This document shows positions 3,801 through 63,300 of a DNA stretch of 64,000 nucleotides, piece after piece. This stretch comes from Planctomycetes bacterium syqfu. GTDB taxonomy: Bacteria > Planctomycetota > Phycisphaerae > Phycisphaerales > Phycisphaeraceae. The notes below the pieces were generated by a model that was not told the origin of the DNA, made no database searches, and was given only the letters and a program-made list of their open reading frames with translations. Position numbers and translations under genes: made by a program. The stretch lies in contig CP087563.1 of the NCBI GenBank assembly GCA_020974905.1, positions 1,054,001-1,118,000 of the forward strand, in the 5' to 3' direction. Within the stretch, counting starts at the first letter, position 1; each line of letters starts with the position of its first letter.

Positions 3801-3987
3801 CCTCGACCTCTTCGGGGGCAAGACCTTCGGTGACAGTGAATATCTGTACGAGGTTGGGCGACACATCCGGGAAGGCGTCCACAGGCAGCCGCGTGTAACT
3901 CCACCACCCGGCAGCCACCACCAGTAATGCGAGCACCGCCATCATCAGGCGATTGTTCAGCGAGTAATCAATCAGTTTGCTAATCAT
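808..3987 (-). CDS. CusA/CzcA-family heavy-metal efflux RND transporter
   Basis: Inner-membrane proton-driven pump of 1,059 residues, the usual length for HME-RND proteins. A membrane helix at residues 14-30 is followed by the first porter domain, a cluster of membrane helices from about residue 335, a second porter domain and a final helix cluster. The transmembrane-4 signature is clear (GGLAIAIGMMVDGTIVMVEN), with the acidic proton-relay residues D and E in place. The start has GGAG eight bases upstream. It works with the adaptor and outer-membrane genes immediately upstream to export metal from cytoplasm or periplasm to the outside. Metal specificity cannot be read safely; the TM4 segment is closer to CusA/HME-mixed types than to the classic CzcA DFGxxxDGA form. 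Confidence 0.95.
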   Translation of the reverse strand: MISKLIDYSLNNRLMMAVLALLVVAAGWWSYTRLPVDAFPDVSPNLVQIFTVTEGLAPEEVEAFVTYPVETAMLGLPGVEKIRSVSNFGLSVVNVYFEEGIDIYFSRRLVNERLQEAREQIPEGFGDPGMGPISTGMGLVLFYFLEDTTGNYTLEELRTTHDWVVARNLARVPGVTEVLGIGGFEKQYHVVLDPDALLRYDLTIADVIERVEANNLNVGAQFIEENNEELVVRSVGLAQDMEGLRRIVVKTKDGRPIYLDDVAELKVGGAVRRGLQTRNGEGEVVAGMVVKLYGTNASTVIERVENKIDEINGILPDGLRLVPYYQQKDIVESSVATVTEALVTGIVFVVLVLLVFMGGFRPSVVVALAIPFSVLFAFIAMYWFDLSANLMSLGGLAIAIGMMVDGTIVMVENIDRMLRDADPDESRVHIVARACHEVGRPIMFAIAIIIIVFLPLFTLQGVEGKTFRPLAYTVALAMLGSLIFALMLAPMLGGLLMRRPRSDARPPLWKRLVGKRTNSGDAAKNNMKSQEPLVVRLLLVPYRPIVRFFVRQRWAAVVLSLALLALGTMIFPLLGSEFTPRLNEGTIVVRLTLAPSISLDESKRTALIVERRLLDIPEVTEVTSRVGRGEVGAHADPINSVEMYVILKPKDQWRQPNDQGFIETQIRERVEGMPGVVANLTQPIEMTVDELLEGVKAELAVKLFGEDLAELKEQADAIAAVLREVPGAADIQVDQVTGTPQLLIRPNFEAIARYGMNLSDVQHTIRAAVGGQDAGQVFEGIRRFDILVRYTPDARETRRAIGDILVESPTGLRVPLTDLAEIRRITGPRQITREDTQRFITIQNNVVGRDIGSFVADAQAAIDKNVRLPAGYFTTWGGAFRLQQEANKRLALVVPITLLVICLLLYSSFNSLGNTLLILLNIPLALVGGVVALWIAGENLSVPASVGFIALFGIALENGMVLVTYLNQLLEEGKTMDEASVEGASLRVRPVLMTAVTTALGLVPLLLATGTGSEVQRPLATVVIGGLVTSTVLTLLVVPSLYKWFAARVEFATPIAKQR

Positions 3988-4031
3988 TAACAGTTCTCCA
4001 TCGGCCCTGCGCGGTCACGCGGGATAGTGAA

Positions 4032-6948: not shown

Positions 6949-7054
6949 ACGTTGATCCTGATGAGGAAAGGGCGCGGTCACTGTCAATTCATCTCTGGGG
7001 AATGCGCGCACGGATACCGCGCACGCAATAGCGAACGGGAAGCGATTGACGGTG

Positions 7055-13365: not shown

Positions 13366-13876
13366 TGTTTCGCTTTCCTTGATTCTCATTCCACGACTCC
13401 AATCGTAATCGTGATCAGTTACCTGTCCGAAGTCTGCTCCCTTTCGGGCGGGGCAACGCACCCCTATCCCTTCCATTACAGAAGGGCATTCGCTTTTTCG
13501 GACCTCCTTTACCCGCACCCGGTCAGCTCGCCTCACGGCGATCTGTCCCTGGGATCTGTCGTTGCGCGATCCGCGGGAACGAATACGGGCTTACTGCGTT
13601 ACGCTTATGCACCCGAGTTGGGTTAGGTCCTGCCTCTCCGCCGGGGAGACTGTGTTCCGCGAAAGCCGGATGGGACAGCCAGCTTTCCCGCTCCCATGCC
13701 CTGTTTGGGCTGAGCCTGTCAGCACCTTTGGCTCATTCCTTTTGACGACGTTTCAAGCAGTTCACTTACATTGACCATACCACTCAAGCCTTGCCTCCCG
13801 TCGCATCGGTGCTTGCGACTGCGGCTCACCTCACGGTTTGCCTTATAAGGAGTACGTTGTCTCCGGGGCTTCACAC
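11953..13876 (-). mobile_element. Truncated group II intron (5' part and maturase only)
   Basis: The minus strand from 13876 begins GTGTG, the usual 5' end of a bacterial group II intron, and continues with domain I-like sequence (CTCCTTATAAGGCAAACC, GTGAGGTGAGCCGCAG) for about 510 bases before the maturase ATG. The 3' side has no maturase C-terminus, no stop and no domain V/VI hairpins, because tape-measure coding starts at 11952. Without domain V the intron cannot splice. A perfect 6-bp hairpin (CCGCTG/CAGCGG) lies in the 72-base 5' flank, between 13877 and the end of the upstream gene. Confidence 0.8.
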
Positions 13877-13948
13877 AAACGGATTACTCCAAATGCATGC
13901 CCGGGTAGGCTACCGCTGGCGGAACAGCGGCTCTGATCACTCTCCTTT

Positions 13949-40252: not shown

Positions 40253-40660
40253 TCACTGTGGCAGACACGAGGCCAACTGCTTCCACAGACGCCGTTGCTT
40301 TCGCCAATCGAATTGAGCCACGATGGGGCGCACATCGCGCTCGGTGACTGGGTCCTTGCCTTGGGTGATGGGTGGTAGATGCAGGATGTCCTCCTGGATG
40401 TCCGGAGCCAGGTACAGCAGGTTCATGATCTGGGTGACGCGAGCGCGGGTGATGTAGCCCAACTCGGCCAACTGAGCCTGGTCGGCAATGGCACCTTCGT
40501 GGATGAGCCGATCGAACTTGATCGCCAATGCCATGAGGCGCGAAAGCCGTGGGACGCGATGATTCGGCGTGTCGCGGATCGGGGCGGGACCAGGCTTGAG
40601 CTCCCGCTTGCCCTTGTTGGCCGTCGCAAAATGAATCTTATGCAAAACAGTGTTGGACAT
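40253..40660 (-). CDS. Small recombinase-linked HTH protein
   Basis: A 135-residue protein whose start overlaps the recombinase 3' end by 23 bases. The middle, IADQAQLAELGYITRARVTQ followed by IMNLLYLAPDIQEDILHLPP, is a helix-turn-helix with a helical extension resembling the ParB/KorB middle domain. The C-terminal part is basic and Trp/Arg-rich. Small proteins of this type follow large serine recombinases in many mobile elements and may act as recombination directionality factors or regulators; that role is inferred from position. Confidence 0.65.
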   Translation of the reverse strand: MSNTVLHKIHFATANKGKRELKPGPAPIRDTPNHRVPRLSRLMALAIKFDRLIHEGAIADQAQLAELGYITRARVTQIMNLLYLAPDIQEDILHLPPITQGKDPVTERDVRPIVAQFDWRKQRRLWKQLASCLPQ

Positions 40661-42209
40661 CAGTGCTCCGTTGGTTTTCAGGTGACAGTGTGCTTATGCC
40701 AGCAGCGTGGTAAGTCAATGCAATGGTCTCGTCCTTGCCGTCATATTCGATGCGTTCAATCAGCAGGTGAACCAACTTGGCTTTGTCTGCTGGTGACATC
40801 GTCTCCCAAACCGGATGGAAGGATTCGATGGCACCCGTCAATTCATCTGGATTGAGCATGCGGTGGCGAATGGCGACGATCTGAGCATTGATCTCCTGGA
40901 TAATTTCCTGCTGTTCATGAATTCGGCTCTGCAATTGATCCAATTGCCGCGTGGCCCGCTCGTCGTAACCGGCCCGTGCGGACAATTCACCAATCTGGCC
41001 GCTTAGCTGCTTGATCGTTTTCTCGACATCGGTGCGTTGTTTTTCGTGCTTGGTGATTTCATCCTGAAGATGGGCCTGCGTGGTGCAGAGCGCATCGTGC
41101 AGGATGTCCTGATCCTGGCCGAGATTTTTGATCTGCTCGACGACAAAATCCTCCAGCTGCTTGGCGGGTAAGGATGGGGCGGGGCACTCATCCCAGCCTT
41201 TTTTCTGAGCCTTGATGCAGACGTAGTACCGATACCGTTTGCTACCGCGTGTGGCAAAGTGATGGCTCATGGCACATCCACATGCCTTGCACCGCACCAG
41301 CCCTTTGAGCAAAGCGCCATGCTTGTTGCGGCTGTGTTTGCCCCCGGAATTCCGATTGCGTCGTAACAGCCCCTGGACACGGGCAAACAGGTCCTCGTCG
41401 ATGATCGCTTCATGCTCGCCATCATGGATTTCGCTTTTGTATGTGATTTTTCCAAGGTAAACCACGTTGGTGAGTACTTTCTGCAAGGCGGATTTGTCAT
41501 ATTCCGCACCACCACGCATCGTGCCTTTCAAGGTTTCGTACTGCTTGGTCTTCCAGCCTCGCTTCTTGATGGCGCGAAGCGTGGGCAGCATTGAGCCGTT
41601 CTTCAGGTACATCTGATAGATGGAGCGGACCCTTTTAGCCTCCTCATCGTTTACCAGGATTCGCGTGCCACGTTTGTCGCGGACGCGGTCATAACCCAAA
41701 ATCGGTGGGCCACCGGTCCATTTACCCTTGCGACGGGCCGCCGCAATCTTGTCCCGCGTGCGTTCGGAGATGATCTCACGTTCAAACTGGGCAAAACTCA
41801 ACAGAATGTTCAACGTCAATCGGCCCATGCTGCTGGTCGTGTTGAACTGCTGCGTGACGCTGACAACCGACACTTTCTGAGCATCGAGCGACTCCATAAT
41901 CTTGGCAAAGTCCATCAGGCTACGGCTGAGACGGTCGATTTTGTACACGATGATGCAATCAATTTTGCCTTCAGCGATATCATTCATCAGTCGCTGAAAT
42001 GCCGGGCGATCTGTGTTGCCGCCAGAGAAACCCGCATCGTCATACCGCTCATCAAGGCATATCCAGCCCTCATGCTTCTGGCTACGGATGTAGGCTTCGC
42101 CGGAATCGCGTTGGGCATCGAGTGAATTGAAATCGAGATCGAGATTCTCATCCGTACTCTTGCGGGTGTAGATCGCACAGCGCACCGGATCGGGCTTATC
42201 CTGGCTCAT
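40638..42209 (-). CDS. Large serine recombinase (phage integrase)
   Basis: A 523-residue serine integrase. The resolvase-type N-terminus has AIYTRKSTDENLDLDFNSLD with the catalytic Ser, then DAGFSGGNTDRPAFQRLMND and IIVYKIDRLSRSLMDFAKIM. A recombinase domain follows (GPPILGYDRVRDKRGTRILV), then a zinc ribbon (VRCKACGCAMSHHF with a later CPAPS) interrupted by a coiled coil (about residues 385-450). This is the enzyme expected to integrate and excise the phage at short att sites. It is coupled by ATGA to the DUF2924 gene upstream. Confidence 0.95.
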   Translation of the reverse strand: MSQDKPDPVRCAIYTRKSTDENLDLDFNSLDAQRDSGEAYIRSQKHEGWICLDERYDDAGFSGGNTDRPAFQRLMNDIAEGKIDCIIVYKIDRLSRSLMDFAKIMESLDAQKVSVVSVTQQFNTTSSMGRLTLNILLSFAQFEREIISERTRDKIAAARRKGKWTGGPPILGYDRVRDKRGTRILVNDEEAKRVRSIYQMYLKNGSMLPTLRAIKKRGWKTKQYETLKGTMRGGAEYDKSALQKVLTNVVYLGKITYKSEIHDGEHEAIIDEDLFARVQGLLRRNRNSGGKHSRNKHGALLKGLVRCKACGCAMSHHFATRGSKRYRYYVCIKAQKKGWDECPAPSLPAKQLEDFVVEQIKNLGQDQDILHDALCTTQAHLQDEITKHEKQRTDVEKTIKQLSGQIGELSARAGYDERATRQLDQLQSRIHEQQEIIQEINAQIVAIRHRMLNPDELTGAIESFHPVWETMSPADKAKLVHLLIERIEYDGKDETIALTYHAAGISTLSPENQRSTDVQHCFA

Positions 42210-44615: not shown

Positions 44616-45866
44616 TTAGGCGCGGGACAGACTCTCAAGCAGCCAAGACGCCCGCTTGTTGATGATGTCGGCCACGCGCTGGGCCATTGCCACATCGGTC
44701 GGCGCACTAAGAACGGTTTCATTCCGCAGTCCGTCGTGCGTCTTGCCGCAGAGAAGCTCGATGCGCTCACGCAGCATGGGCCAGCCCACGCTGGCTTCTT
44801 TGGCCATCTTCTGCCAGTGCTCGGGCGTGATTCTTTCGATGGATTCGCTCTTACCGATCTTCATGGCCGGGGTCTTGGACAGTTCCGGCCAGGCCAGCGT
44901 ACAGACCAGATCGTACAAGGGCGCGAGTCGTCGGTTGCCCTTGTGATAAAGGATCGAGTAATTCTTGCCGTGGGCGTCGGCATTCCCGATCAGCACGTTG
45001 AAAATCAGGCCGTCCAGGAAGTCCCGGATGTCCAGTGCCGCGATGGTGGACCAGTCGCGGAGCAGGCCAATGCAGTCGCGCAGCAGCGGTCCACCTTCCT
45101 GCTGGTACTTCCGCTCCGGGGGAAAACCCAGGGCCTGGCAGAAATCCTCCTGATGAACGCGCGTGACCGAGCCATCCTCGTCGATGGTGCGATCATATCG
45201 TTGGACGACGATGCACGGTTTGTCTCCAGCCAAGCGGACGGACACCGAAGGAACGTTTAGGCCGATCGTTTTGGCCAGCGTCATGCAGAGGACTTCGACG
45301 GCCACCAGTCCGGGGAAATGATCGGGTTCCGGCTTGATGATGTGCGTGCTGGGCGTGTTGCCCAGTGGCAGCGCGACAACGGCATCCAGAATCAGCACCG
45401 GCAGCTTCGACTGCGCCCCGGCCAGAGAAAGCCGCAGCCCTTCGTGGCCCGCCAGCAGCGGGTGGCGGGGCAGTTCCGCGACGATCTCTTCCAGTTCCTT
45501 CTCGCTTAATTCACGCACGCGCCGCTCGCCCACGGTCGGAGGCGGCGAGTCTTCCGGTAACAGGCTGACCGCCCCGGCGCATTCGCCGCCAATGCGTTCG
45601 AGCATGGCGAAATCGTTGCGTTCGCTGATGCCCAGGATGGCGGCGATCTGTTGCCTGGGTCCCTCATCAGGGAGAATGCCCGCGAAGAACGGACGGGCAT
45701 GTTTTCCCCGAAATGATTCGCTTTGCAGCGGCAGCGACCGCGAAAGAGGCATGGCGTTCGGTCTGCCCAGCCATTGCTGAGCGTAACGGAACTCAAGAAG
45801 CCCGCTGTCATCCTGGTCGAGTGTTCCGACCTGCTCGCCATTGAGATGGACCGTCAGCCGTTTCAT
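44616..45866 (-). CDS. hipA: HipA-family serine/threonine kinase toxin
   Basis: A 416-residue HipA. The N-terminal subdomain starts RLTVHLNGEQVGTLDQDD and contains LPDEGPRQQIAAILGI. The kinase core has LSLAGAQSKLPV (ATP-binding loop), HIIKPEPDHFPGLV with the ATP-binding Lys, the catalytic NVLIGNADAHGKNYSIL and the metal-binding LAPLYDLVCTLAW. HipA phosphorylates glutamyl-tRNA synthetase or a related target and slows growth, causing dormancy. It overlaps the antitoxin gene by four bases (ATGA), the standard arrangement. Confidence 0.95.
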   Translation of the reverse strand: MKRLTVHLNGEQVGTLDQDDSGLLEFRYAQQWLGRPNAMPLSRSLPLQSESFRGKHARPFFAGILPDEGPRQQIAAILGISERNDFAMLERIGGECAGAVSLLPEDSPPPTVGERRVRELSEKELEEIVAELPRHPLLAGHEGLRLSLAGAQSKLPVLILDAVVALPLGNTPSTHIIKPEPDHFPGLVAVEVLCMTLAKTIGLNVPSVSVRLAGDKPCIVVQRYDRTIDEDGSVTRVHQEDFCQALGFPPERKYQQEGGPLLRDCIGLLRDWSTIAALDIRDFLDGLIFNVLIGNADAHGKNYSILYHKGNRRLAPLYDLVCTLAWPELSKTPAMKIGKSESIERITPEHWQKMAKEASVGWPMLRERIELLCGKTHDGLRNETVLSAPTDVAMAQRVADIINKRASWLLESLSRA

Positions 45867-46102
45867 GGCATCATGCTCTCCGTTGCATTGCCGCCCATCG
45901 TCGTCAGCTCGATGGCCAGTCCCAGCGATTGGAGGACCTGCAGTGTCTTACCTATTTGACAGGTAGGCTTGCCTTTCTCCAAGTCGACGATGAACCGCAG
46001 CCCCGTACCACAGGTCATGGCCAATTCTTTCTGGGTGATCTTCAACTGCTTTCGCCGCGTTCGGATCACCGCTCCGAGTTGTGTTGTCGTTTGGGTCTTC
46101 AT
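45863..46102 (-). CDS. hipB: HipB-like antitoxin, XRE-type DNA-binding protein
   Basis: A 79-residue helix-turn-helix protein: LGAVIRTRRKQLKITQKELA, then MTCGTGLRFIVDLEKGKPTC and QIGKTLQVLQSLGLAIEL. It neutralises HipA and represses the pair by binding palindromes upstream. The start at 46102 gives the normal HipB length; the longer frame upstream runs through the operators and is rejected. Confidence 0.93.
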   Translation of the reverse strand: MKTQTTTQLGAVIRTRRKQLKITQKELAMTCGTGLRFIVDLEKGKPTCQIGKTLQVLQSLGLAIELTTMGGNATESMMP

Positions 46103-46109
46103 GGTGTTC

Positions 46110-46215
46110 CCGATCGGTAATATATCGGCCACTGACCGGTCAATCAATAGAAATTTTACCGATCGGTAAAACATTTCCCAAAACGGCCAGTTTGGGTTGG
46201 AATATTCCCGATCGG
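46110..46215. promoter_or_regulatory. Three evenly spaced HipB operators
   Basis: The core CCGATCGG occurs at 46110-46117, 46159-46166 and 46208-46215. The middle copy is part of a perfect 18-bp palindrome (46154-46171, TTTTACCGATCGGTAAAA). Centres are exactly 49 bp apart, so the sites are regularly phased upstream of hipB and suit cooperative repression with DNA bending. Confidence 0.85.
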
Positions 46216-46355
46216 TGTATTTTACAACCGAATGGGGGCTTAACCACAAGCGGGTACGTTGTTCACGTCACCTTCTCACTGGCGACTTGAGCCGCCAGGT
46301 TCTACATGCGTAACGATCCGCAGGCTCCAACACCATTGCGTGTTCGGTACGGCAA

Positions 46356-46557: not shown

Positions 46558-47241
46558 TCACGGCGAGACATTGGATAGTTGTTCCAATGTAGTCAACCAT
46601 TCATTGAAATGCCGGCACTTTTCTCGAAGCGTTTGCAGGCCGATTTTTCCTGCTACAGCCACACCAGCCGTCACCTTGTCATATTCAGGTATTTCGTTGA
46701 GGATTCGCTTGGAGGGGGCAGTCATGGGGTCGTCATTAATCAACTCGGGATTTTGGTTGACCACCATGGCAATCAGGTTGTTGATCGGGCGGTCATGCTC
46801 CAGATATTCCCAATCGAGTTGTTGTGGGTCTGCCAGAATCAACGCTTCAAACTCATGCAACTGGATATAAGGAATGAATCGCCTACTGGCGAGATCGCTG
46901 GCCATGGATTCTTCAAGAATCCGAATGCATTCATACTTGTCGGTTTGTTTTTTGGCTTGCGTGTATCCAGGAAAATCATTAGGCAAAGCATAGAGATCAA
47001 ACATAGTGGAGAATCGGCACTCGGCATGCTTATCTTCCTTGAGCCAATTCTGAATATCCTTCTTGGCTTTTTGGTAGCTCAACAAACCACCACGATATTC
47101 CTTGGCGGCTCGATTGTCTTTACTGGTCAAAACACGGCGAGCATCAACCAGAACATCATAACGGGCTAAGTGCGGGGTGAGTACATTTTTCACGAAAGCC
47201 TGTTCTGCGTGACCTTCAGCGGTGATGTGCAGGCGGATCAT
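46558..47241 (-). CDS. DUF4276 (TOPRIM-like) protein
   Basis: A 227-residue protein of the DUF4276 family. It has RLHITAEGHAEQAFVKNVL at the start, the acidic centre RFSTMFDLYALPNDFPGYTQ and the QLHEFEALILADPQQL block. The Glu near the start and the Asp residues in MFDLY are the expected metal-binding residues of a TOPRIM-like nuclease. Together with the upstream AAA ATPase, to which it is coupled by ATGA, it resembles two-gene abortive-infection systems in which the ATPase senses phage and the TOPRIM partner acts. The pair's defence role is inferred. Confidence 0.85.
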   Translation of the reverse strand: MIRLHITAEGHAEQAFVKNVLTPHLARYDVLVDARRVLTSKDNRAAKEYRGGLLSYQKAKKDIQNWLKEDKHAECRFSTMFDLYALPNDFPGYTQAKKQTDKYECIRILEESMASDLASRRFIPYIQLHEFEALILADPQQLDWEYLEHDRPINNLIAMVVNQNPELINDDPMTAPSKRILNEIPEYDKVTAGVAVAGKIGLQTLREKCRHFNEWLTTLEQLSNVSP

Positions 47242-48350
47242 GGCTGACCTCCCAGCACATTTTTCTCCCATAGTTCGGAGAGACTGTAGCGATCAAGCCA
47301 GTCTTTCAACTGTTCTGAATCCATCGTCTTGAAAATGGAACAGTTCTTTTCATCATTCCGCTCGACGACAACAAGATCATCTGCTGAAAACTCATCCACC
47401 AGACGCGTGGACTGGGTGGCCAGCAGCAATTGTGTTTTTTGTGCTGCGGAACGAACGATTCCCGCCAGTTCAGCAATCGCAGCGGGATGGAGCCCCAACT
47501 CCGGTTCATCCAATACGATGAACTTGGGCAACAGATCCGGGGGTTGCAAAAGAAGCGTTACCAAGGCCATGAAACGTAGTGATCCATCGGATATCTGATC
47601 GGGGTCAAAGAGATAGTCGCTGCCGGAAGCATCCTTCCAGTTCAAACGGACATAGTCCTTGTTGCCAGGGATTGGCTCAAGGTCAAAGTCTCCGAATTGG
47701 GGCATGACCCGCTGGATATGCCGGACAATGCGTTCGTAATATTTTGTGTACTTGTTATGGTCCTTGAGCATTTTCAGGAAGGCTGCCAGATTACCTGCAT
47801 CACTGCGGAGATACTTTGCATCATCAACATAACCACGATCCTTGATCTTTGCGGTGTCTGACGTGTCATGGAATTGGTACGTGCGGATGCCGGACAACAG
47901 GCCGTGGAGCACTTTGCTGGTTTGCTGTTTATCTTTTTTAAGTTCGGACTCAGCTCCTCCGGATTCCAGAAAGTACTGCTGTGGTTTGGACTCACCGATT
48001 TTGTGATAAGTAATTTTTTCGCCACTGATGAATAAGCGATCAGGCAAACCGTATGACAGCTTCACCTCGTATGTGTCGTGAGCAGCGTCATCTTCAAACT
48101 TCAGTTCAAATGAAATGGACTCGGTTTGTTTGGGGCCGTAGAACAGCAATCGACTAACACCTTGTTTGCCAACATACTGTTGGAGAGCACCAGTCGTCAT
48201 GTAATTTAGCATCTTGAAAAACGACACCAAGTTGCTTTTGCCCGAACCATTGGCTCCCAGCAGGACCGTCACATCGCGGAGCGGAATGATTTGGCCATCC
48301 TGCCCGTCGATGGACTTGTATCCTTTTAAATGTATTTCGTGTAATTTCAT
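47238..48350 (-). CDS. AAA_21-family (SMC/RecF-like) ATPase
   Basis: A 370-residue ATPase. Walker A is LLGANGSGKSNLVSFF near residue 35, the ABC-like signature region is QISDGSLRFMALVTLLL, and Walker B with the catalytic Glu is FIVLDEPELGLHPAAIAEL. The H-loop region is TQLLLATQSTRLVDEF. This compact form without a long coiled coil is the AAA_21 type often paired with DUF4276, as here. The ATG at 48350 has GGAG six bases upstream; an upstream GTG is less likely. Confidence 0.9.
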   Translation of the reverse strand: MKLHEIHLKGYKSIDGQDGQIIPLRDVTVLLGANGSGKSNLVSFFKMLNYMTTGALQQYVGKQGVSRLLFYGPKQTESISFELKFEDDAAHDTYEVKLSYGLPDRLFISGEKITYHKIGESKPQQYFLESGGAESELKKDKQQTSKVLHGLLSGIRTYQFHDTSDTAKIKDRGYVDDAKYLRSDAGNLAAFLKMLKDHNKYTKYYERIVRHIQRVMPQFGDFDLEPIPGNKDYVRLNWKDASGSDYLFDPDQISDGSLRFMALVTLLLQPPDLLPKFIVLDEPELGLHPAAIAELAGIVRSAAQKTQLLLATQSTRLVDEFSADDLVVVERNDEKNCSIFKTMDSEQLKDWLDRYSLSELWEKNVLGGQP

Positions 48351-48671
48351 GACCATCTCCACACGCCGCTATTTGTCCAGTACTTTGTACCTGTAAAGCC
48401 ACTCACTTGCCAATCGTCAACGAGAAGTATGTACCTTGCTCTTTTGTTCGATACTCCGCGTTTAACAGCAGGCCACCCCGGACTGTACGGCCTTGTTAAC
48501 CCGTACTGCGTCCAGGCGGTGAGAGTCTGAGAATTGGGCCCAAAATCATCCTGACCCGGAAAATCGCGGTTAACAGGATGGAGAATCTGGTGGCGAGATC
48601 TCGCCCAGCAACACTCCCATATCTCTTGCACACAGCGACTTATAGCGCGACTTTTTCCGGTCACATCACAA
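48351..48671. other. Intergenic region without recognisable gene
   Basis: About 320 bp between the ATPase gene and the tRNA terminator. Open frames here are short and carry no recognisable protein. GTTAACC appears twice, and one short inverted repeat (GGCGAGATCTCGCC) is present near 48591-48604. It may be leader sequence of the ATPase pair or remnant mobile DNA. Confidence 0.4.
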
Positions 48672-48707
48672 GCAAAAAATAAGCCCGCATCAATTTGACG
48701 CGGGCTT
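48672..48707 (-). terminator. Intrinsic terminator after tRNA-Asn
   Basis: Minus strand AAGCCCGC pairs with GCGGGCTT (48681-48688 and 48700-48707) around a 11-base loop and is followed by TATTTTTTGC. It begins six bases after the tRNA 3' end and terminates its transcript. Confidence 0.85.
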
Positions 48708-48712
48708 CAAAA

Positions 48713-48785
48713 CTCCTCCGACTGGACTCGAACCAGTAACCTAGCGGTTAACAGCCGCTCGCTCTACCAATTGAGCTACAGAGGA
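48713..48785 (-). tRNA. tRNA-Asn (anticodon GTT)
   Basis: A 73-nt tRNA on the minus strand. Acceptor TCCTCTG pairs with CGGAGGA (one G-T). The D arm contains GTAGCTCAATTGGTAGAGC. The anticodon stem AGCGG/CCGCT encloses CTGTTAA, giving anticodon GTT. The T arm has the loop TTCGAGT. The discriminator base is G, and CCA is not encoded. Confidence 0.97.
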
Positions 48786-48941
48786 TCAATTGAGACGGAT
48801 AAGATAACAAACTGACAGAGACTTGCAAGTCCATCTGACAAAATTTTTCATCCAAATGTCACCTTTTTAATGCGTCAAGACACAGTGCTTCTGATGAGGG
48901 TAAACGTGGGTTTGCCATAAGTCCTTAAAAGGAGCAAGTTC

Positions 48942-50577: not shown

Positions 50578-51305
50578 TGAGCAAGCTTAACCCTCCCCCC
50601 ATGCCATCCTCCCAACCTGAGTTTATAATCAAGAATATTGCCTGTTTTGGCTAGAGATGCGTGATTAGGGTTTTGGGATTAGGGTTGTTAGATGGAAGTC
50701 TCTTGGCTTGGCTTGTTTTGCCTTGTCGTAATCCCTAATCCCTTTTCAACGCGTTCAATGCTTAAACAAAACTCAGGTTACCGAGTTCTATTCTGTCATC
50801 TCACTGGCAATTCACGCCACCAGGAGCCCCATATGATCTTGGCCAGCCCAACGCCCATCATGGCCTTCACAACAAATCGCGCAAGTACTTTTTATCACGG
50901 CAAATCGATCTCGGCTTGATTATGACAATTCGTTCATGATGTAACGGTTATAACGAATAGGTCGTTTGTTTTTTTGTCGGACCCCTTCAAATTCACATTG
51001 TCTTCACATGATTTTTCATACAATGTGCAACGTTGAATGTGCGTTTTATCGGGCGTTTACGGATGCTCGTTCAACTAGGGGGACTTCTACCAGTACACAA
51101 TCAAGTCCCCGTGATGCATGTTTGATCATGTGATCCTGTGCATTTGGCACGAGATCGTTGTATGCATTGTCAGAACGGTTTTGATGATGCCCGGGAAAAC
51201 AAATTTGGATATCGCTTTGAGGTTTCGGGAAAAGACTTCAAGGCTGTGGACAAGGATCGTTGTTGACGCACGATTCATTCCATGGGGATATCCGGGAGAT
51301 GCAAC
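50578..51305. other. Long intergenic region upstream of the giant gene
   Basis: About 730 bp with no convincing gene. A near-perfect inverted repeat GGGATTAGGG (around 50678) and CCCTAATCCC (around 50733) could form a large hairpin. A segment at about 50793-50825 (TCACTGGCAATTCACGCCAC) resembles one at 46262-46299. AT-rich DNA at 50930-51040 may hold the promoter of the giant gene, but no near-consensus pair of boxes could be fixed. Confidence 0.4.
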
Positions 51306-54300
51306 ATGTCTGCAAGTTCCGTTGCGTATGAGTACTGCCAACGTCTGATCCATCGCTTTGCTGAAAACCGCAAGACGCTGACCAGCAAATTCAAACGATC
51401 CAATCGCCATCAAGCGGATAACGCGATGGTCGAAGCCCTGGAAAACCGCATCCTGCTTTCAGGCTCCGATGTCGCGGTGGCTTACGTGGATGACGATTGG
51501 GCAGCCCTTTCAATCGGCGTTGATCCGGATGGTGACGGCCCTGCTGGTGAATATGGCGTGGATGCCTTTGCCTCCATCCAGGACGCCATCGACAACCTCG
51601 CTGCCGATGGCACGATTCACGTTGCAGACGGGACCTACACCGAGAACCTGAGCATCACGCAGAATCTCACCCTGCTCTCGGACAACGGCCGCGATGTCAC
51701 CTTCATCAACGGCCTATCCGGCGAAGGTGCCTCAGGTGCCATCACCATCTCCAATGCCACCACCGATGTGCAGATCGGTGACATTAATCAGGGCTTTAGC
51801 ATCCTCGGTATCGACAACGGTAACGCTGCTGTTGAAAACGCTGCGGTCTACCTGCAGGGTTCACACTCAGGCATGTCCATCATCGGTAATGAGATCATTG
51901 CCAACGGCGATCACGGCCTGCTCACAGAGTATTCTGCTGCTATCACCAACATGACCGTCGACAGCAACATCTTCTCCGGTCAGACATTCGTCGGCGTCAA
52001 TCCCGGTGGTGAAGGTTTCAGCCAGCAATTCTCACTGGATAACGTTCCTCGCCAACTTGTCGCTTTTGGCGGTGGCGCCACTTCGAACAATAACTTTATC
52101 GCCTTCACCAACAACGACATCACCGGCACCGCAGGCGGCGTCAACATTAATGGTGACGAACAAGGCAACAGCCTGGTCACCATCGACACTCAAAATTCCA
52201 TCATCACCGGCAACACCTTCGAAGGCACCACCACACGCTATGGCGCAGCCCTGCGCGCTCGCGGCAGCGGTAACGCCACCATCACCGGCAATACGTTCAT
52301 CAGCACGTACATGGGTGAAAACACATCCATGCTCTACACCGATACGAACACCATTAATTCGGTGTATCCCGGTTTGATCAATAAAATCGTTGAGTTCGAA
52401 AATGACTTTGATGGTGGTGCATACATCAGCGGTGGTAGCACCGTGACCACCGGCATCGAAGGCATCATCGAAAACGCAGTTGCCGGAACCATCATTCATG
52501 TACTCGCTGGCAATTATGATGCTGACATCACCATCAGCCAGAATGACATTACTGTGTACGGCCCCCATAGTGAATTTACCAAACTGGATTCTGGTAGACG
52601 CGCAATCGATGGTGAAGCCGAAATCACCGGCGGGTTCCGCGTTCAAGGTGACGATGTGACACTCGCAGGACTAACCATCCTCAATGGCATCGGGCCTGCA
52701 GGCATTGGTGACATCACAGCGGTCCATCTGGCAGCCGGCACCACCGGTCACACAATTGCCAATAACGCCATCATCGGTACGGATGCAGCAGGTTCACGTG
52801 GCATTGTCGCTTCAAGTCCAGTTGGTTCATTCACTGTCGTGAACAACGACATCTCTGCTTGGACCAGTGGCATGTATATCAACCCTGGTAGCGATGGCGT
52901 GCAGGTACTCAACAATATCATTCACGACAACTTTGTGGGCATGTCTGCCGACAACGCAATCAATCTCTCCGTAGCCAATAACTTTTTCACAAATAACAGC
53001 TATGAACATATCGGTCTTGGCACGCCTGGCGCAGGCGTGGTGATCACCGAAAACAGCTTTGATGCCAACAGCCCGTCGGTTTCCAACTACGGCGGTGTGG
53101 AAGTTGATGCGTCAACCAACTGGTGGGGAACCACTGATCTGGCGTTGATCGGGGTCAACCTTACTACCAATGCTTCAAGTGATGTGGACTACTCCCCCAT
53201 TCTTAACGATGGTACCGATTTATATACATACCCTGAGCATTATTACTTGCCAGATTATTACGGCTTCCAACCCGATACCGGTAACGTCACAGTCCACACA
53301 CAGGGTTCACAGGATACTGGCTCTGTCATTCAGGAAGCATTAGACGCCCTGTCCAACGGCGACACGCTTATCCTCGACGGCGACTACACCGGCGATATCA
53401 CCATTGGCAACGGGCTGATCGTTGGGGGGGATTTCACCACCGATGGCCAGTTGATCCTCGAAGACGGTGCAACCCTCGCCCCCGGCAATTCCCCGGCTAT
53501 CGTCAATGTCGGTGGTCTTGCCATGGGCACCGGTGAAACACTGGCGATCGAACTCTTTGGCACAACTGCTGGCACCGAGCACGATCAAGTCAATGTCACC
53601 GGCACGGTCGATATCACCGACAGTACCCTCGACCTCACTCTCGGTTACTATCCCACCACTTCCGGTGCCAGCTTCACCATCATCAACAACGATGATGTCG
53701 ACAGCATCGTCGGAACCTTCGCAGGTTTGGCCGAAGGTGCAACCTTCACCCTCAACTACGGCGGTGTCGATTTTGATGCGAGCATCACCTACGTTGGTGG
53801 CGATGGCAACGATGTGGTGATCACCACCGATAGCTATGCGATCACCGATGTCTACGTCGATGACGACTGGGCAGGACTCTCCGTCGGTGATGATCCCGAT
53901 GGTGTTGGTCCATTGCAGGGTATTGGCTTTGACGCCTTTGCCAATATTCAGGATGCCATTGATGCAGTCAATCCACGCGGCAATGTCTATGTTGCTGCTG
54001 GACACTATGTAATTGACAGCACGATTACGACCAACAAATCCGTCAACCTGATTGGTGCGCAAGCGGATAACGACCCGCGTACAGAAGCAGGACTGCGTAC
54101 GGCTGGTGATGCAAATGAGAGTGTTATTGATGGTAACGGCTTGGTCGACAATCTGATTGATCTGTCATTTGGTGTCATTACCATCAACGGTTTTGAGTTC
54201 CGTGAAAGTACAGATGCAGCGGTCCATTCGGATCACACGGGCAATGCGACCATTTCCAACAACATCATTCACGACTCTGATAATTACGGCATTGAAATCA

Positions 54301-57300
54301 TCAGCCCTGCATTCACCACAACGATCCAAAACAATCTGATCTTTAACACAGGTAACGATGGGATTACAGCCACCAGCAGACATGGAATACCACAGATTCT
54401 TGACAATGAACTGCACAACATCACCGCATCAATCGCGGCAATTCATGTCTATGATTCAAATTCTGCACTTATTGACGGCAATATCGTCCGTGACGTGCTG
54501 GCTGGCGATGGTATTCGTGCAGGTAACATCACGCCTGGCACTGGGGGATTTGGTGGCAGTACAACAATCACGAACAATACCGTCTATAACATCGCTGGTG
54601 ATGGGATTGCCAGTTATGGTGAAGCCCAACGTTTCTACTTCAATGAAGTCTACAACACATCTGGCCCAAACGGCGGTATCTATGCGACTCGTGTCGCCAG
54701 CACGAATATCCAAAACAATTACGTTCACGACAATGTCTATGGCATTTCCGTGGGTTCTGGTGACTGGATTCGATTGGATAATAACACCCTCGAAAACAAC
54801 AGTTCAGGACATGTCCTGATTGACAGCAGCTTTGGTGGGAATGGTGAACTTTTTAGCATTTATTACAGCAGCTTTGACACCAACAGTCAGGCAATCATCA
54901 ACAATTGCATAGCTTTAACGGCCCCAATTTCCCTAAACTGGTTCGGGACCACCGACCTGTCGATCATCGCCAGCAATCTTGCCGGCTCTGTTTATTACAA
55001 TCCCATCCTGGTTTCTGGAATAGATACAGACGCAAATGCCATCGGCTTTCAACCTGACACATCGGCATTGATTGTCCATACAAATGGCAGAGGTATTAAC
55101 AGAATTTCAATCGGTGTTAAGTATGTCGATCCCAATGGCACAGTTACCGTTACTCAAGGCGACTACACGGACTCCGTCACCGTCGACAACGGCATCCGTC
55201 TTGAAGGCAAATTCAACCTCGACGGCACATTAACCTTTGTAGATGGTGCGACATTCGCCCCCGGCAACTCTCCCACCATCGTCAACACTGGCGATCTGTC
55301 AATGACCACCGGAACCACGTTGGAAATCGAACTCTTCGGTACCACGCCCGGCAGTGAGTATGACCAGGTCAATGTCACCGGCACCGTCGACATCACCGAT
55401 GCAACACTGGACCTGTCACTTGGTTACCTTCCTTCATCCGGTGATCAATTCACCATCATCAACAATGATGCGACTGATGCCATTACCGGTACATTTTCTG
55501 GTTTGGCTGAAGGTGATACGGTTACGGCCAATTACAACGGCGTCGACTTTGACTTGACCATCAGCTATGTCGGAGGAGACGGCAATGATGTCGTCCTCTC
55601 ACTGGATAACACAATCTACGATGTGATTTACGTTGATGATGATTGGACTGGCACGGGTTTTGGCAACGATCCAGATGCTGGTGGCCCTGCTTCAATCTAC
55701 GGTGTCAATGCGTTTGATAACATTTCAGATGCTATCGCAGCTGTCAATGCTGGTGGAACGATCCACATCGCTGCAGGCGATTACGATCAAGGCACGATCA
55801 ATCTCAACAAGGATGGCGTTACTCTGACAGGTGCACAGGCAGGTACCAATGCCAGCAGCCGTGACAATGTCGACGTCACCGATGAAACCGTCATCCATGG
55901 CACGATTGTCGTCGGCCATGATGTCACCGGCGCAACCATCGACGGTCTGTTCATGCAGGACTTCACCAACAGCTCTGCGGAATACTTCGGCGTCTTCGTC
56001 AGTGGCGGTGCAGATCAGACCACCGTTCAGAACGTCTACTTCCAGGGGACGGCGCCCGATGTGCTACAAAACGGCATCGTCACCAGCATCGCAGGCACCA
56101 CCAACAACGTCTTCACCCAAAACGTCTACAACAACACCTACTACGGCGTCTATCTCAACCCCAACTCGGTGGGCAACGAGATTTCCGACAGCCTGATCAC
56201 CAACACGCGAATTGGCTATGTCATCGACACCGCTGAAAACACCACCGTCACCGGCAACACCTTTGACAGTTCCACCGGTGTTTACTTCTGGGATGGTGGT
56301 ACGGCAAGCGTCGGCGATAACACCGGCGTGACCATCGAAAACAACACGTTCCAAAACGGCACCGGCATCCGCGATTCCTATGTCACCGTCAATGACCCGG
56401 GCCTCACCGTGGACCTGTCCAACAATACCTTCGATGGCAAACTTCCCTCTGCCATGTCACTGAGTGAACTCTTTGATCTGGAAGACAGGATCACCCATGC
56501 CATCGACGATGCAGCGTATGATTCACTGGGCATCGTCGTGGCAGACAACCTCTATGTCACCCAACTCAGTAGTTCAATCCAGAACGGCATCGACGCAGCG
56601 ACAGCAGGCGACACGCTCTACGTACAGGCCGGCACGTTCACCGAAAATCTCACCGTGGACAAAACCCTGCAGATTCTCGGTGCAGGCAGCGGCTTGACCA
56701 TTCTCGAAGCTGGCAACGATGTCGGTATCAATGTCACCACGGGTGGCACCAGTGCAGCGGAAGCAGACCGACTGCTCATCAACGGCATGACCATCAACAA
56801 CGCAGCCTCCATGGGCATCGACATTGATGGCACCGTCTCCTACATCACCATCGACGATGTCGACGTCAATGTCGATGGCGTCAGCCGCACCGACTACGGC
56901 ATCAACATTGCAGCCACCGCTGATGTCACCGACCTGCTCATCGACAACTCAAACTTCTCGACCAACTCCGAAGGTGCCGGCATGCATGTGCATGGCAGTG
57001 TCGATGGCCTGACCATCATTGATTCGCATTTCGATGGCAATAACATCGGCTTCTATGCCTTCCAGGTCGATGGTTCGGATACCGTCCTCAACAACGTGGA
57101 CATCTCCGACACGTCATTCAGCAACAACACCTACAAGGGCATGTACATTGAAAAACTCAGTAACGCCCTGCTGGATAACATCACCATCAACAACTCCGGT
57201 ACGCTTAGTGGCACGGCAGACGGCCTTGCAGGTTATGAAGTCTGGCCGACTGGTATTGACCTGAATCTCAAGTATTACGATTACGAAAATATCACGATTC

Positions 57301-60300
57301 AGAATTCAAGCATTACCGACTCAGGTACCGCCAACCCAGCCAATGGTGCAGGCCTTGCAGTCAAAACCCGTGATGACGGCAGCTACGCGACGCATCCGGC
57401 TACACTGAACGGCCTGACCGTCGTCAATAACTTTATCAACGGTTCTCAAACAGCCATACGTGTGGGGGAACCCGGCAAAGGCAATACGGGTTTATCCAAC
57501 GTCAGTATGGACTTCAACGATCTTTCCGGATCACTGACCGAGAACATCATTGACAACCAATCCATTGATGACGTCAATGCTTCGGCAAACTGGTTTGGCA
57601 CAGCCGACCTGACCAGCATTGCCAATGCCATCATTGGGGCTGTAGATTTTTCGCCGATCATCGAAACCGGCATAGATACGCAACCTGGTACAAACGGCTT
57701 CCAGCCGGACCTTTCTGCGTTGACGGTTCATCTTGATGGCTCGCAAGTAACGGGGCTGATCACTGAAGCAATGAGCCTTATCGCTGACAACGGCATCATC
57801 ACTGTCGATTCGGGAACATACACAGACAATGTGACGATTGGTAGTGCTGTAACGATTCAAGGTGATTTCGACATTGATGGCACGTTGACTTTAACGGATG
57901 GCGCCGTCTTCGCTCCCGGCAACTCCCCTGCGATCGTCAACACCGGTGATCTGAGCATGACTGCGGGTACGACCCTTGAGATCGAACTCGACGGCCCAAC
58001 CGTTGGCACGGAATACGACCAAGTCAACGTCACCGGCACGGTCGACATCACCGACGCCACACTCGACGTTGCACTCAATCACTTACCGTCATCAGCCAAC
58101 GAATTCGTCATCGTCAACAACGACGGTGCGGATGCTGTCGTCGGAACCTTCGATGGACTGGCTGAAGGTGACACCATCACCATCGATGGCATCGTCCTGA
58201 CCATCAGCTACGTCGGCGGTGATGGCAATGACATCTCTCTTTCAACCGCAAGTAACTTCGATGTGATTTACGTCGATGACGATTGGTCCGGCACCGACTT
58301 CGGAAATGATCCCGATGCAGGTGGTCCAGCAGGTCTCTACGGCGTGAATGCATTCGATAACATCAACGACGCAATGGATGCGGTCAACACAGGTGGAACC
58401 ATCTACGTCCTGACAGGCAGCTACACCGAAGGTGTGAGCATTGACAAGTCCGTCAACCTGCTGGGGGCCAATGCGGATGTCGATCCGACCAACAGTGGCG
58501 TGCGCAACGCTGAATCCACCATCATCGGTAATGTCAACATCGTTTCTGACGATGTGGTCTTCAACGGTTTTGAACTCACCGACTACAACTACAACGGTCT
58601 GACCATCGGCGGGCAGGTCTCCAACATTGTCATCAGCAACAACTACATCCACGATTCAATCGGTGGCAACACCGCAATTCTGCTGTCTCCCGACGCAGAT
58701 GAAACACCCAATGGTGAAGTCGTTGCCCTGACCAACATCGATATTTTCAACAACTACGTGGTGACCAACAGTTCCATCAACAACCAGGTCGGCATCCGCT
58801 TCAGTGGTCCGGCTTACACGCATCAGGTGCAGTACAACCAGGTCACCATCGATAGCAACGAAATCACCGGCACAGGTGTCGGGCACTATGGTATCTTCTC
58901 CGGTTCCAATCCTGCTGGCTATTCCATGCAGGATGCAGTGATCACCAACAACTACATCCACGATGTGGCAAGCGGGATCAACCTGGGCAATATGTTCAAC
59001 GGCCTTGTCGATAACAACCTCATCGATGGCACCTCAGGCACCGGTGCATCACTGGGCGTCATCGACGGCACGATCTCAAACAACACCTTTGCCAACGTCG
59101 GCAGCCAACTGACCGAAGGTGGCACCGCTGCCATCGGTATTTGGGGGACGGAATATGGTTTCACCGCCACCACCAATGCCACCCTCACCGGCAATGTCAT
59201 TTACTTTAACGACAATGCCAACGCCACCATCAGCGGTGTCTACACGCGTGAAGGTGCAGACAGTGACAATATCCACATCAACGAGAACAGCTTCATCAAT
59301 GGCGGTCAAAGTGCAGACGCCTTTGCGGTGGCCAACTGGTCCATGGATGACGGCATGCTCGATGCTTCCAACAACTGGTGGTCCACAACCGATGCCAGCG
59401 AAGTTGCAGCACTGACTTCTGATTCATATGAAGAAGAAACCTCACCGGGTGTCTTTGAAACCTTCACCAGTGGTGACGTTGACTCCTCCCCGTTCCTTGA
59501 ATCGGGCACGGATATCGACGGCTCAACCGCAGGCTTTCAGGGTGACTTCTCTTCATTGACCGTGCACACCTTTGGCGCTCAGACCGATGGCTTGATCCAG
59601 GAAGGTATTGATGATGTCGATGTCAACGGCACCGTACATGTCGCAGCAGGCACCTATGCGGAACACGACATCGTCGTAGACAAAGCCGTCTCCATCGTGG
59701 GTGAAGGCTCAGATGTTGTGACCGTAGATCATCACTACTATCAGTCCGGCCACTACACCACTGGTTTTGATATTCAGTCTGATGACATCAACATCTCTGG
59801 CATGACGCTTGAAAATGCAGTCTACACCATCAATGTCTTTGAACAGGATATCACCAACCTATCACTCTCTGATGTGGTTATCCAAAAAACGCAAAGTGTT
59901 TACTATGCTCCCACTGCTATCAGAATCAATGATTCAATTGCAAGTAACATCAATATCGATCACGTTGAATTCTATGAAATGTATAAAGGTATCAGTGTCG
60001 GCGGATCAGCAGGCAACATTGTGAATGGCTTATCCATTACAAATTCAAAATTCATTTCAACTGATCCGTTCAGAAACAACGTCGGCATTTCGACTGCTGC
60101 CCCACTTACCAATCTGGTGATTACAGATTCGCTGTTTTCCGGCAATAAAACCGGGATTACCAGCTCATTAAATGGCGACACACTTATTGAAAACAACACG
60201 TTTAGCGAAAATAACTTTGGCATCTTATTTACCAAGGGTTCTGCTGCTTCCATCGATGAAGACGGCGAAGTTATCGTCAATAACAATCAATTTACGAATA

Positions 60301-63300
60301 ATGCATATGCTGCGTTACGAACCGTCGTATTCAGCGATTTATCAAACAGAACACTTGATGTCCCAATCACCATTCGTAACAACACAATAACGCAAGACGT
60401 TTCTCTGTATACGATCTACCCCTATCAATTCGCAATCGATATTTCTTTGATGTCAGGCCCGACACATGAAACGATTAACATCATCGAAAACAATATCACC
60501 TTAACTGGAACGCCCGACTCAAAGGAATATGGCGCGATTGCAGTTCGTGGCGGTCTCACTGACGTAAACATCGAACGCAATACGTTAGAAGGCGGTAACA
60601 TCGGATCCTATCCCGGATTGGTTGCAACATCCGGTATCGTGCTTTCGACAAATCATGTTGATGAAGGCTATGCTGCATACATAGGTGAATTCGATAGTTC
60701 AGACAGCCTGTATATTGCAAACAACTTCATCAATAACTTTGATGCTGCTTTTTCCATCATTGAGAACTCGGGGTATATCAGCCCGTCATACTTAAGCTCT
60801 CTTCCCACTGACGCACAGGTGGTTCTGTATAACAACGACCTTTCAGGCAACACAGCAGGCATTGTTGCGCTTGAGTCGGGAGAAACGATTGATGCATCAA
60901 ACAACTGGTGGGGCTCAACGGATGTCTCAACCGTGGCCGGTATGATGTCAGGCAATGTCGACTTCTCCCCATTCCTCGAATCGGGTACTGACACCGATCT
61001 GGCTACTGAAGGTTTCCAGGGTGACTTCTCCGTCCTGACCGCTCATGACGAAGGTGCACAAACCAGCAACATCATTTATGAAGCCATTCGTGCAGTGGAT
61101 ACCAACGGCACAGTGCATGTGGACGCAGGTACCTATCAGACATCTTCCTATCACGTGAAACCAGCAGATGAAATCGATGGTCCCATTGTTACCGAATATC
61201 CACATCTCTACGTTGACAAGGCGGTAAATCTGCTTGGTGCCAATGCAGGTATCAACCCCAACACCGAATCACGTGGCGAAGAAACCACCATCCTTGGCAG
61301 CATCGTCATCGCTGCCCCGTACGTCAACTTGGATGGCTTCGAGTTGACAGGTGATGTGGACGAATACTCCCAGACTAATATCCTTGGCAAACTCTATCTT
61401 GCCAGCGGCATAGGTGGGACGACGCTGCAAAACCTCTACATTCACGATGTCGATTTCGGTGAAGTCCCAGTTTACAGCAATGAAGTTATCATTCTGAGTT
61501 CCAGTGCAGACACCACCATCATTGACAACAATATCCAAGGCGGTATGACGTTCTATCACAACTCACTCTCATCCACTAGTACTGGATCATGGTCAAGCAC
61601 CCTGATTAAGGACAATGTCATTGGTGGCATCGGCAGCAGCAATCGCTATGGCAACTACTCCTGGTACTACGACTTCTATAGCCTTCAAATCCTGGATAAT
61701 CAGCTCGGCAGCATCTCGCTGCGTTCACTCAATGATGCACTGATTGATGGTAATACTTTCTCAGGCGGCATTTCAGCCACCGGTTCAGGCACCATCTCCA
61801 ACAATGACCTTCGTGCAGGTGGGGCTCTGTACCTGGGACTCAGTGACTCGATCAAGCAGAATGCCGGTGCCACGTTTGATATTACCCACAACTTCTTTAC
61901 CTACAACACCAGTACCGATATCGCTGAAACAGCAGTCATCTACCTCAACCGTTGGGCAGGTGCCAGTTCGATTCATATCAATGAAAACAGTTTCACCGAT
62001 GGTGGTGCTCGTAATGACGCCAATGCCGTGATCAATCGCGATTTGGACGACCATGTTCTTGATCTTTCCAACAACTGGTGGGATACGACGGACATCAACC
62101 AAATCGTCGACCTAACCTATAACCTGACAAGCCAAGGCAGTGAAAACTATGCCGGCCTCGTCGACACCAGCCCGTTCCTCGAATCCGGTACCGACACCGA
62201 TCTGATTACCCCCGGCTTCCAAGGTGATTTTTCTGCTCTGACCGCTCATGTGGACAGTGCCCAGACCACCGGCAATATCAATGAAGCCTTAAGCAACGTC
62301 GAAGCAGGCGGCATCGTCCATGTCCTCGATGGTACCTACACCGAAGATGTCACCGTCGACAACGGCGTGACTGTCGCTGGCTCCTTCGATCTCGATGGCA
62401 CCCTGTCTCTGACTGGCAGTGCTCAACTGCTGCCTGGCAACAGCCCCGGTATCGTCAGCACCGGTGACTTTTCGGCTGACAGCTCAAGCATCATCGGCAT
62501 CGAACTCGACGGGGCAGATGCAGGTACCGGTTATGACCAGATTCAGGTCACAGGCACCGTCGATATCACCGATGCCACACTCGATCTGTCACTGAACTAC
62601 TTGCCCAGTGGTGAGGAATTTGTGATTATCGATAATGATGGCAGTGATGCCGTTATCGGAGCATTTGACGGCTATGCCGAAGGCAGCACCTTCGTATTGA
62701 CTGACTCTGTTTCCGGTGAAGAGGTCGAATTCACCATCACCTACACCGGCGGTGATGGCAATGATGTGGTCCTCACAACCAACGAACCACCGACAGCCAA
62801 CAATGTTGCCATCAACGCTACCGAAGATGGCCCCGCAGTACTCGGCAACTTCGATGGTGCTGATCCCAATGCCAACGATTCTCTCACTTACCAACTCGTC
62901 GACCTGCCAACCAACGGCACGGTCATCAACAACAACGACGGTACCTTCAGCTATACCGCAGGTGATTTGCCCAATCTCAATAACGGTGAAACCAAACAAG
63001 TCACCTTCACCTACAAGGCGGTTGACAATCATGGCGAAGAAAGCAGCTTGGCAACCGTGACAGTCACCGTCTCTGGCGTCAATGAAATCCCCGACGGTCC
63101 CGTTGCTTATCTCAACGGCTCAGTCGATAATGCTTTCACCACTTCGGATAGCGATGTCGACATTGATGTTATTGCCAATGACACCGGGGAAAATCTGCAT
63201 GTCACCCGCGTCGACCTCACAAGTGATCTCGGTGCGACCGTTTCAATCAATCCTGACGGGACCATTCACTATGAACCGGGCAGTGTGTTTGACAGCTACG

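Follow-up and report, generated by a model that had tools for sequence, protein, structure and literature searches.

An intact HEC-01 gene pair, predicted to act in phage defense, at the edge of a planctomycete genomic island

Two overlapping genes close to a tRNA in Planctomycetes bacterium syqfu raise the question of whether they form an anti-phage system and, if so, of which kind. An earlier interpretation made from the DNA letters without database searches (the sequence-only reading) had proposed a candidate system in which an SMC-like ATPase is coupled to a TOPRIM-like protein. Here we ask what the genes encode, whether they form an intact and recurrent unit and how the two proteins might work together, using the whole 64,000-nt stretch of DNA analyzed (the window) and relatives of the pair elsewhere.

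Family assignment of the gene pair

The pair consists of the following features.

47238..48350, minus strand: HEC-01A, AAA_21/SMC-like ABC ATPase, 370 aa (Pfam, PADLOC, AlphaFold)
46558..47241, minus strand: HEC-01B, DUF4276 protein, 227 aa, TOPRIM-like predicted nuclease (Pfam, PADLOC, AlphaFold, profile)
47238..47241, minus strand: ATGA overlap of the ATPase stop and the DUF4276 start (sequence)

The proposed coupling and the identity of both proteins hold, the Pfam matches lying far beyond chance: AAA_21 (PF13304; E 3.7e-28, 99.9 bits against a cut-off of 27) and SMC_N (E 1.8e-11) on the ATPase, and DUF4276 (PF14103; E 2.3e-52, 178.5 bits against a cut-off of 30.2) on its partner. The DUF4276 start is most likely the ATG at 47241 (227 aa) and not that at 47271 (237 aa), which yields the 4-nt overlap with the ATPase stop; family scans of this protein were run on the longer 237-aa version. 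A GGAG lies six bases upstream of the ATPase start ATG at 48350, and promoter and terminator scans around the pair gave no signal above shuffle level.

The sequence-only reading had called for a PADLOC search, and PADLOC-DB returned HEC-01A for the ATPase (PDLC04175, E 1.6e-130; residues 1-369, the protein being given without its first Met, on positions 5-362 of a 363-position model) and HEC-01B for the DUF4276 protein (PDLC04188, E 8.9e-79; residues 3-233 of the 237-aa version on positions 4-227 of 230). HEC-01 is the best-ranked PADLOC model for the two proteins alike, and all five families matching the DUF4276 protein at E up to 0.1 are HEC-01B. In the window copy the two HEC-01 genes lie side by side on one strand, with the 4-nt overlap. 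Measured against its counterpart in a second species of the genus (G003), the ATPase gene has a dN/dS of 0.07 (65 differences, 51 synonymous); it has therefore been maintained and is under purifying selection. On sequence grounds, the window pair is an ordinary, intact member of HEC-01.

It follows that the candidate is already catalogued, PADLOC-DB 2.0.0 listing both components as HEC-01: the defense reading is supported by this assignment and by relatives in BREX and restriction-modification (R-M) loci, while the pair is not a new candidate. The source preprint is reportedly that of Payne et al. 2024. A literature search, judged by titles and abstract starts among the matches listed, found no functional study of HEC-01; "HEC-01" together with "PADLOC" gave no match in the literature searched, and the term DUF4276 was absent from the main texts searched, PMC12839542 included. 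PMC12724379 has HEC-01 among its detected systems.

Genomic island

The surroundings of the pair contain the features listed below.

808-7011: RND efflux operon (ACR_tran, HlyD_D23, OEP), on the island
10825-13931: group II intron (Rfam RF02012) with a reverse transcriptase (RT)/maturase ORF
about 15.8-21.9 kb: phage capsid, portal and terminase genes
40638-42209: large serine recombinase, apparently intact, with a DUF2924 gene
44616-45866 and 45863-46102, both minus strand: hipBA (second start by our own reading)
48713-48785, minus strand: tRNA-Asn(gtt), right edge of the island (ARAGORN, Rfam)
51282-64000: open frame of >4,200 codons reaching the window end, outside the island

The source genome (7.38 Mb) belongs to the same genus as Phycisphaerales bacterium UBA7800 (DLCK01000013.1 has the same pair). 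Window positions 1-47,798 are nearly identical, in two blocks, to G003: six positions differ within the first 11.9 kb and one between 11,946 and 47,798. The stretch from 47,799 to 48,831 is rich in differences, with 119 over about 1,030 bases when viewed in 500-base bins; the drop in identity at 47799 is abrupt and falls inside the ATPase gene, and beyond the tRNA-Asn there is little DNA similarity to G003. Leftward, near-identity stops at G000:C1 1,040,985, and at this left end a 61-base stretch is 93% like the G003 right end (tRNA-Asn 3' end plus terminator) and 80% like the window's own right end over 50 bases.

We read these patterns as a tRNA-Asn island of roughly 62 kb (window 1-48831; G003:C31 30205-95619) that two species have recently come to share, and whose end next to the tRNA, one half of the ATPase gene included, is a mosaic with an older past; G003 is a draft MAG, and a chimeric assembly is a possible source of the same pattern. 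A donor and an exact crossover are things we infer. In G001 the pair is absent at the tRNA, but the contig stops some 275 bases beyond the 3' end of the tRNA and is uninformative as to an empty site.

An accessory island with hipBA beside a tRNA had been proposed, and the near-identical block, the hipBA genes and tRNA-Asn(gtt) support it, as the capsid, portal and terminase genes do the proposed prophage. The "recombinase scars" did not fare as well: the large serine recombinase appears intact instead, and a direct-repeat scan, covering 36-49 kb, found one pair of 41 nt. Besides the efflux operon, the intron, the phage structural genes, the recombinase, hipBA and the pair, the island carries DNA methylase genes. 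The pair itself is free-standing, its neighbors being hipBA (a toxin-antitoxin locus), the tRNA and a Metal_resist-type gene.

Two side observations concern the island. Three palindromic boxes (nCCGATCGGTn) lie at 46108, 46157 and 46206, spaced by exactly 49 bases and spanning 46108-46217 upstream of hipB, and from their sequence and position are likely HipB operators; with up to two mismatches the window holds four matches against 1.4 expected, a count that three shuffles reached. G003 carries about 3.55 kb extra at window position 11946, between the two blocks and within the RT ORF; this may be a second intron nested in the first.

Linkage and distribution

The subfamily profile of the DUF4276 protein matches 26 of 392 sampled genomes of the phylum, its own included (E up to 0.001), a patchy distribution. 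Besides the window's own, 25 places reach E 1e-40; an adjoining ATPase is found at 24 of the 24 with a locus (two of which are rows of the profile itself) and, by a separate check, at the 25th, G392:C99. Among weaker DUF4276 loci, two of the five examined have an adjoining ATPase. Searched for in reverse, the ATPase reaches E 1e-40 or better at 30 places in 21 of 384 genomes (a total that covers the own place and in which one gene appears as two pieces), 26 of them with DUF4276 within a 1.5-kb flank; the other four comprise two contig ends, one apparent truncated DUF4276 start and one divergent DUF4276 recognized by the profile only.

The gap from ATPase to DUF4276 ranges from -8 to +2 nt in 25/25 loci and is exactly -4 in 17/25. 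A script picked these starts close to the expected position, and the loci include two pairs of mutual copies and one (L027) whose DUF4276 frame stops early. By the annotators' own starts, the genes overlap by 1-8 nt in all ten plasmid loci examined. The two proteins diverge in step, their distances being correlated (r 0.90, 21 pairs, 0 of 10,000 permutations), which fits, as expected, a unit that moves together and is expected too of any two neighboring genes doing so.

Relatives extend well beyond the phylum. ATPases 80-84% identical to that of the window occur in Oligosphaera, a verrucomicrobial MAG and a spirochaete MAG, and 12 plasmid records carry the DUF4276 gene of the pair, with the ATPase directly upstream in 10 of the 10 examined. 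Phage records gave no matches. In viral contigs a single-sequence scan found none and an alignment scan two loci, one being a Mu-like prophage (L073) in which the pair directly follows a repressor-like gene on a contig that also carries MuA-like, MuB-like, terminase and portal genes, all named from our reading of the translations.

Defense context of relatives

Several relatives lie within defense loci. In Oligosphaera ethanolica (L018) the order is PglX-A-B-PglZ-BrxL, A and B being the pair, with BrxC upstream, and a Geobacteraceae contig has A-B-PglZ-BrxL. On a Desulfobacteraceae contig the genes ahead of the pair encode a type IIG-like enzyme and a HEC-06/Orf5-type protein; in a gammaproteobacterial MAG those after it encode a type I methylase, a specificity subunit and a Ppl-like protein. 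Aeromonas plasmids have it among type III methylase and restriction genes, and in Ideonella a methylase and a PDC-S02 (Mrr) protein adjoin it. At six of the ten plasmid loci examined the pair is not among R-M genes. In the genome of the window, the check for defense genes covers the surroundings of the pair. Among ten intact named relatives, the neighbors of six were scanned in part, and four of these have defense matches nearby (L018, L020, L022 and L025), and PADLOC gave no match among the four genes scanned in L024 or the one in L019. As a separate observation, the Nostoc plasmid pCENA543b (L031) carries a HEC-01 pair, a Piwi-domain gene and a PD-(D/E)XK gene.

We also compared 149 ORFs around 22 pairs with 127 of 128 control ORFs (one of >1500 aa was dropped) from 18 of 20 requested regions, hand-picked in the same genomes, two genomes having no control. 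At 1e-15 the PADLOC families listed near pairs include type III and II methylases, MzaA, DrmD, AbiEi, BrxH, a DRT-type RT, REase_I, PDC-M41/M30, kinase-type models (PD-T4-6, mad6) and RtcR; at 1e-20, with two kinases left out, REase_III, ZorD/DpdE, PDC-S14 and PDC-S02 also appear. Matches listed for the controls include SoFic, MTase_I, IetA and the same kinase-type and RtcR models. Each list holds the best 25 families, a single protein may match several families, greedy ORF calling left some ORFs overlapping the pair on the other strand, and thresholds differ (1e-15 and 1e-20); we therefore give no enrichment figure, and the comparison is only suggestive. The sequence-only reading had named a lack of enrichment of homologs in defense islands among the findings that would count against it, and the placement of some relatives in BREX and R-M loci speaks against such a lack.

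The ATPase

The principal ATPase motifs are given below for an alignment of 22 rows, L027 kept in.

48234..48257, minus strand: Walker A, residues 32-39, GANGSGKS; G32, N34, G35, G37, K38 and S39 invariant in 22/22 rows
47484..47522, minus strand: Walker B and D-loop, residues 277-289, FIVLDEPELGLHP; 281-289 DEPELGLHP invariant in 22/22 rows

An SDG signature and a TQS motif are further present, and all motif residues are invariant or nearly so across the 22 rows. The AlphaFold model (pLDDT 82.9) matches SMC and Rad50 heads with Z of about 18-22 and PtuA with Z 19.0. Among the best 25 of 128 PADLOC matches, mad3 reaches 7e-34, and the AriA model PDLC02980 reaches E 2.6e-26, far weaker than HEC-01A and with a length and match range equal to those of the generic AAA_21 model.

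A predicted TOPRIM-like fold in the DUF4276 protein

Candidate active-site residues of the DUF4276 protein are listed for an alignment of 21 rows, from which L027 (early stop in the ORF call), L029 and L030 (no whole ORF) were left out; from their sequences, the DUF4276 genes of these three loci look broken or doubtful.

47203..47217, minus strand: TOPRIM-like motif I, residues 9-13, EGHAE; E9, G10 and E13 invariant in 21/21 rows
46990..46998, minus strand: D82-L83-Y84, DxD-like with Tyr for the second Asp; D82 and Y84 invariant in 21/21 rows
46846..46857, minus strand: H129-E130-F131-E132; E130 and E132 in 21/21 rows

The TOPRIM topology has the order strand-helix-strand-helix-strand, with a Glu at the first turn and an Asp at the end of the third strand. 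The AlphaFold model (pLDDT 88.3, pTM 0.85, 11 sequences) follows this order: E9 occupies the turn between the first strand (residues 2-8) and the first helix (residues 11-26), and D82 ends the third strand. Foldseek gave no match at E 0.001 or less with this model; its top two rows are OLD C-terminal regions (probability 1.00, E 1.1e-3 and 2.2e-3). In the VIA comparison the top row is an uncharacterized protein (2p62, Z 8.9), and OLD follows at Z 8.5 (rmsd 4.1, 171 aligned), a score close to the 7-8 that is usual as the best Z when a model has no clear match. In the PARIS complex 8ux9 chain B is AriA, and chain A, accordingly read as AriB, has Z 7.1 (rmsd 5.0, 179 residues), retron Eco8 6.6 and Gabija 5.4, rows that are tied with the unrelated PurE (6.8) and a designed Rossmann fold (6.6). 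The strength of the fold evidence is the recurrence of OLD-type defense nucleases among the structural matches.

A profile alignment points the same way. An hhalign comparison, run without a negative control, with OLD TOPRIMs from related genomes (12 of 16 loci, the four weakest left out) gave E 1.1e-4 and probability 57, pairing E9-G-x-x-E13 with OLD VEGxTE and D82-L-Y84 with OLD DLD. By sequence no solved structure of the HEC-01 effector turned up, the DUF4276 profile matching no PDB chain at E up to 10. With these modest scores, the overall fold of the modeled DUF4276 protein is TOPRIM-like, in agreement with the label given to it by the sequence-only reading through the fold matches to OLD and PARIS and the alignment of E9, E13 and D82.

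In a wider set of 31 rows, from 45 loci searched with the same-family profile and with some rows duplicating one locus, D82 is Asp in 30/30 scorable rows, Y84 is Tyr in 27/30, E130 is conserved in 28/30 and E132 in 30/30. From the Tyr in these 27/30 and the former 21/21 rows, the second Asp of DxD is lost across the set, and catalysis could thus differ or be lost. The TOPRIM superfamily is marked by DxD, and the protein is for this reason called TOPRIM-like. It is possible, from the conservation, that E130 and E132 serve as further metal ligands.

Proposed mechanism and alternatives

We assign a probability of roughly 0.7 to the reading that the intact HEC-01 pair is an abortive infection module in which an ATPase sensor controls a silent TOPRIM-type nuclease. 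HEC-01A, resembling an SMC/Rad50-head ABC ATPase, would be sensor and regulator, and HEC-01B, as a metal-dependent TOPRIM-type nuclease, the effector; the products of the overlapping genes would assemble into a complex, with the nuclease held silent in it. The trigger would be a phage product, plausibly an agent against restriction or BREX; it would change the ATPase, the changed ATPase would free or activate the nuclease, and the freed nuclease would cut host tRNA or DNA so that the infection is aborted. We infer the complex, its trigger, the nuclease activity, its target and the protection. A defense function of the pair is predicted with good confidence and a TOPRIM-type nuclease effector with slightly less, both being probable; release of the nuclease in the manner of PARIS, an analogy, is the most likely scheme and is put forward tentatively.

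The same parts may be wired otherwise, with an OLD- or Gabija-like nuclease attacking phage DNA ends or structures directly and the ATPase acting as DNA sensor. This is a credible possibility, at less than even odds, to which the closest named folds (OLD C-terminal domains, which outscore the PARIS chain) and the ATPase matches to SMC and Rad50 heads lend weight; the pair has two separate genes as in PARIS, however, rather than the fused OLD/GajA form, and no helicase gene lies directly beside it. That the pair is an addiction or toxin-antitoxin module stabilizing a mobile island, one protein neutralizing the other and phage defense being secondary, appears improbable. Its occurrence on plasmids, the island and a Mu-like prophage, the Pfam text for AAA_21 ("putative AbiEii toxin") and the hipBA locus next door would suit such a role, but some relatives sit inside BREX and R-M loci and the best PADLOC models are HEC-01, those for the DUF4276 protein being HEC-01B throughout.

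RecF-RecR combines an SMC-like ATPase with a TOPRIM partner, and the SMC/Rad50-like ATPase and TOPRIM-like protein of the window could by that likeness be a repair pair serving mobile elements and not defense. We regard this as very improbable, the patchy distribution (26/392), the 80-84% identical ATPases in other phyla and the relatives in defense loci pointing to an accessory, transferred module.

Returning to the sensor-controlled nuclease, the intact pair, purifying selection on the ATPase gene, candidate active-site residues and BREX relatives make HEC-01 readily testable. They raise the question of whether it fires as a backup when phages disable restriction, as PMC12839542 proposes for TOPRIM-linked OLD-ABC modules in BREX. 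A bolder version, which we think rather unlikely, is that DUF4276 proteins form a distinct TOPRIM branch with Tyr for the second catalytic Asp and with E130 and E132 completing the metal site, and that the pair guards BREX and R-M against phage anti-restriction proteins as a backup alarm shared across phyla, with a cleavage target of its own.

Comparison with known systems

The sequence-only reading placed the pair within the logic of PARIS and OLD with different domain families, and the HEC-01 match, the TOPRIM-like fold with its modest scores, the 24/24 linkage and the BREX and R-M relatives bear this out. PARIS likewise has two genes, an ABC ATPase (AriA) and a TOPRIM-like partner (AriB), and 8ux9_A is among the structural matches, but the DUF4276 protein has no AriB profile match (PADLOC, E up to 0.1). 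According to PMC12409363, AriA holds AriB silent until phage triggers release it and tRNA is cut.

OLD, Gabija GajA and retron Eco8 OLD combine an SMC/ABC ATPase with TOPRIM and are among the best sequence, fold and profile matches. They are single fused polypeptides whereas the window pair is two ORFs, OLD TOPRIMs have DxD where the DUF4276 protein has D-x-Y, and no GajB helicase or reverse transcriptase gene lies directly beside the window pair. Septu differs in its partner, the HNH protein PtuB in place of DUF4276. For MADS, the ATPase scores 89.4 bits with the NCBIfam MAD3 model against a cut-off of 420; no other MAD model was among the matches listed for seven window proteins scanned (for the ATPase, the best 25 of 128), and a MAD3/MAD4 literature search gave only unrelated papers among the matches listed.

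The term "Hma-embedded candidate" is explained in PMC12988326 and PMC12111858. HEC-04 (IbfA) is such a candidate that also joins an ABC ATPase to TOPRIM, reported in the latter as protective against T4 and T5, but it is fused in one protein. TOPRIM-linked OLD-ABC modules, proposed as backup effectors inside BREX in PMC12839542, are a further likeness, relatives L018 and L020 being of this kind. The closest correspondence is with HEC-01 of PADLOC-DB, whose two components both window proteins match over nearly their full length in one operon, with no essential difference: the window copy stands by itself at a tRNA, outside Hma or any other system.
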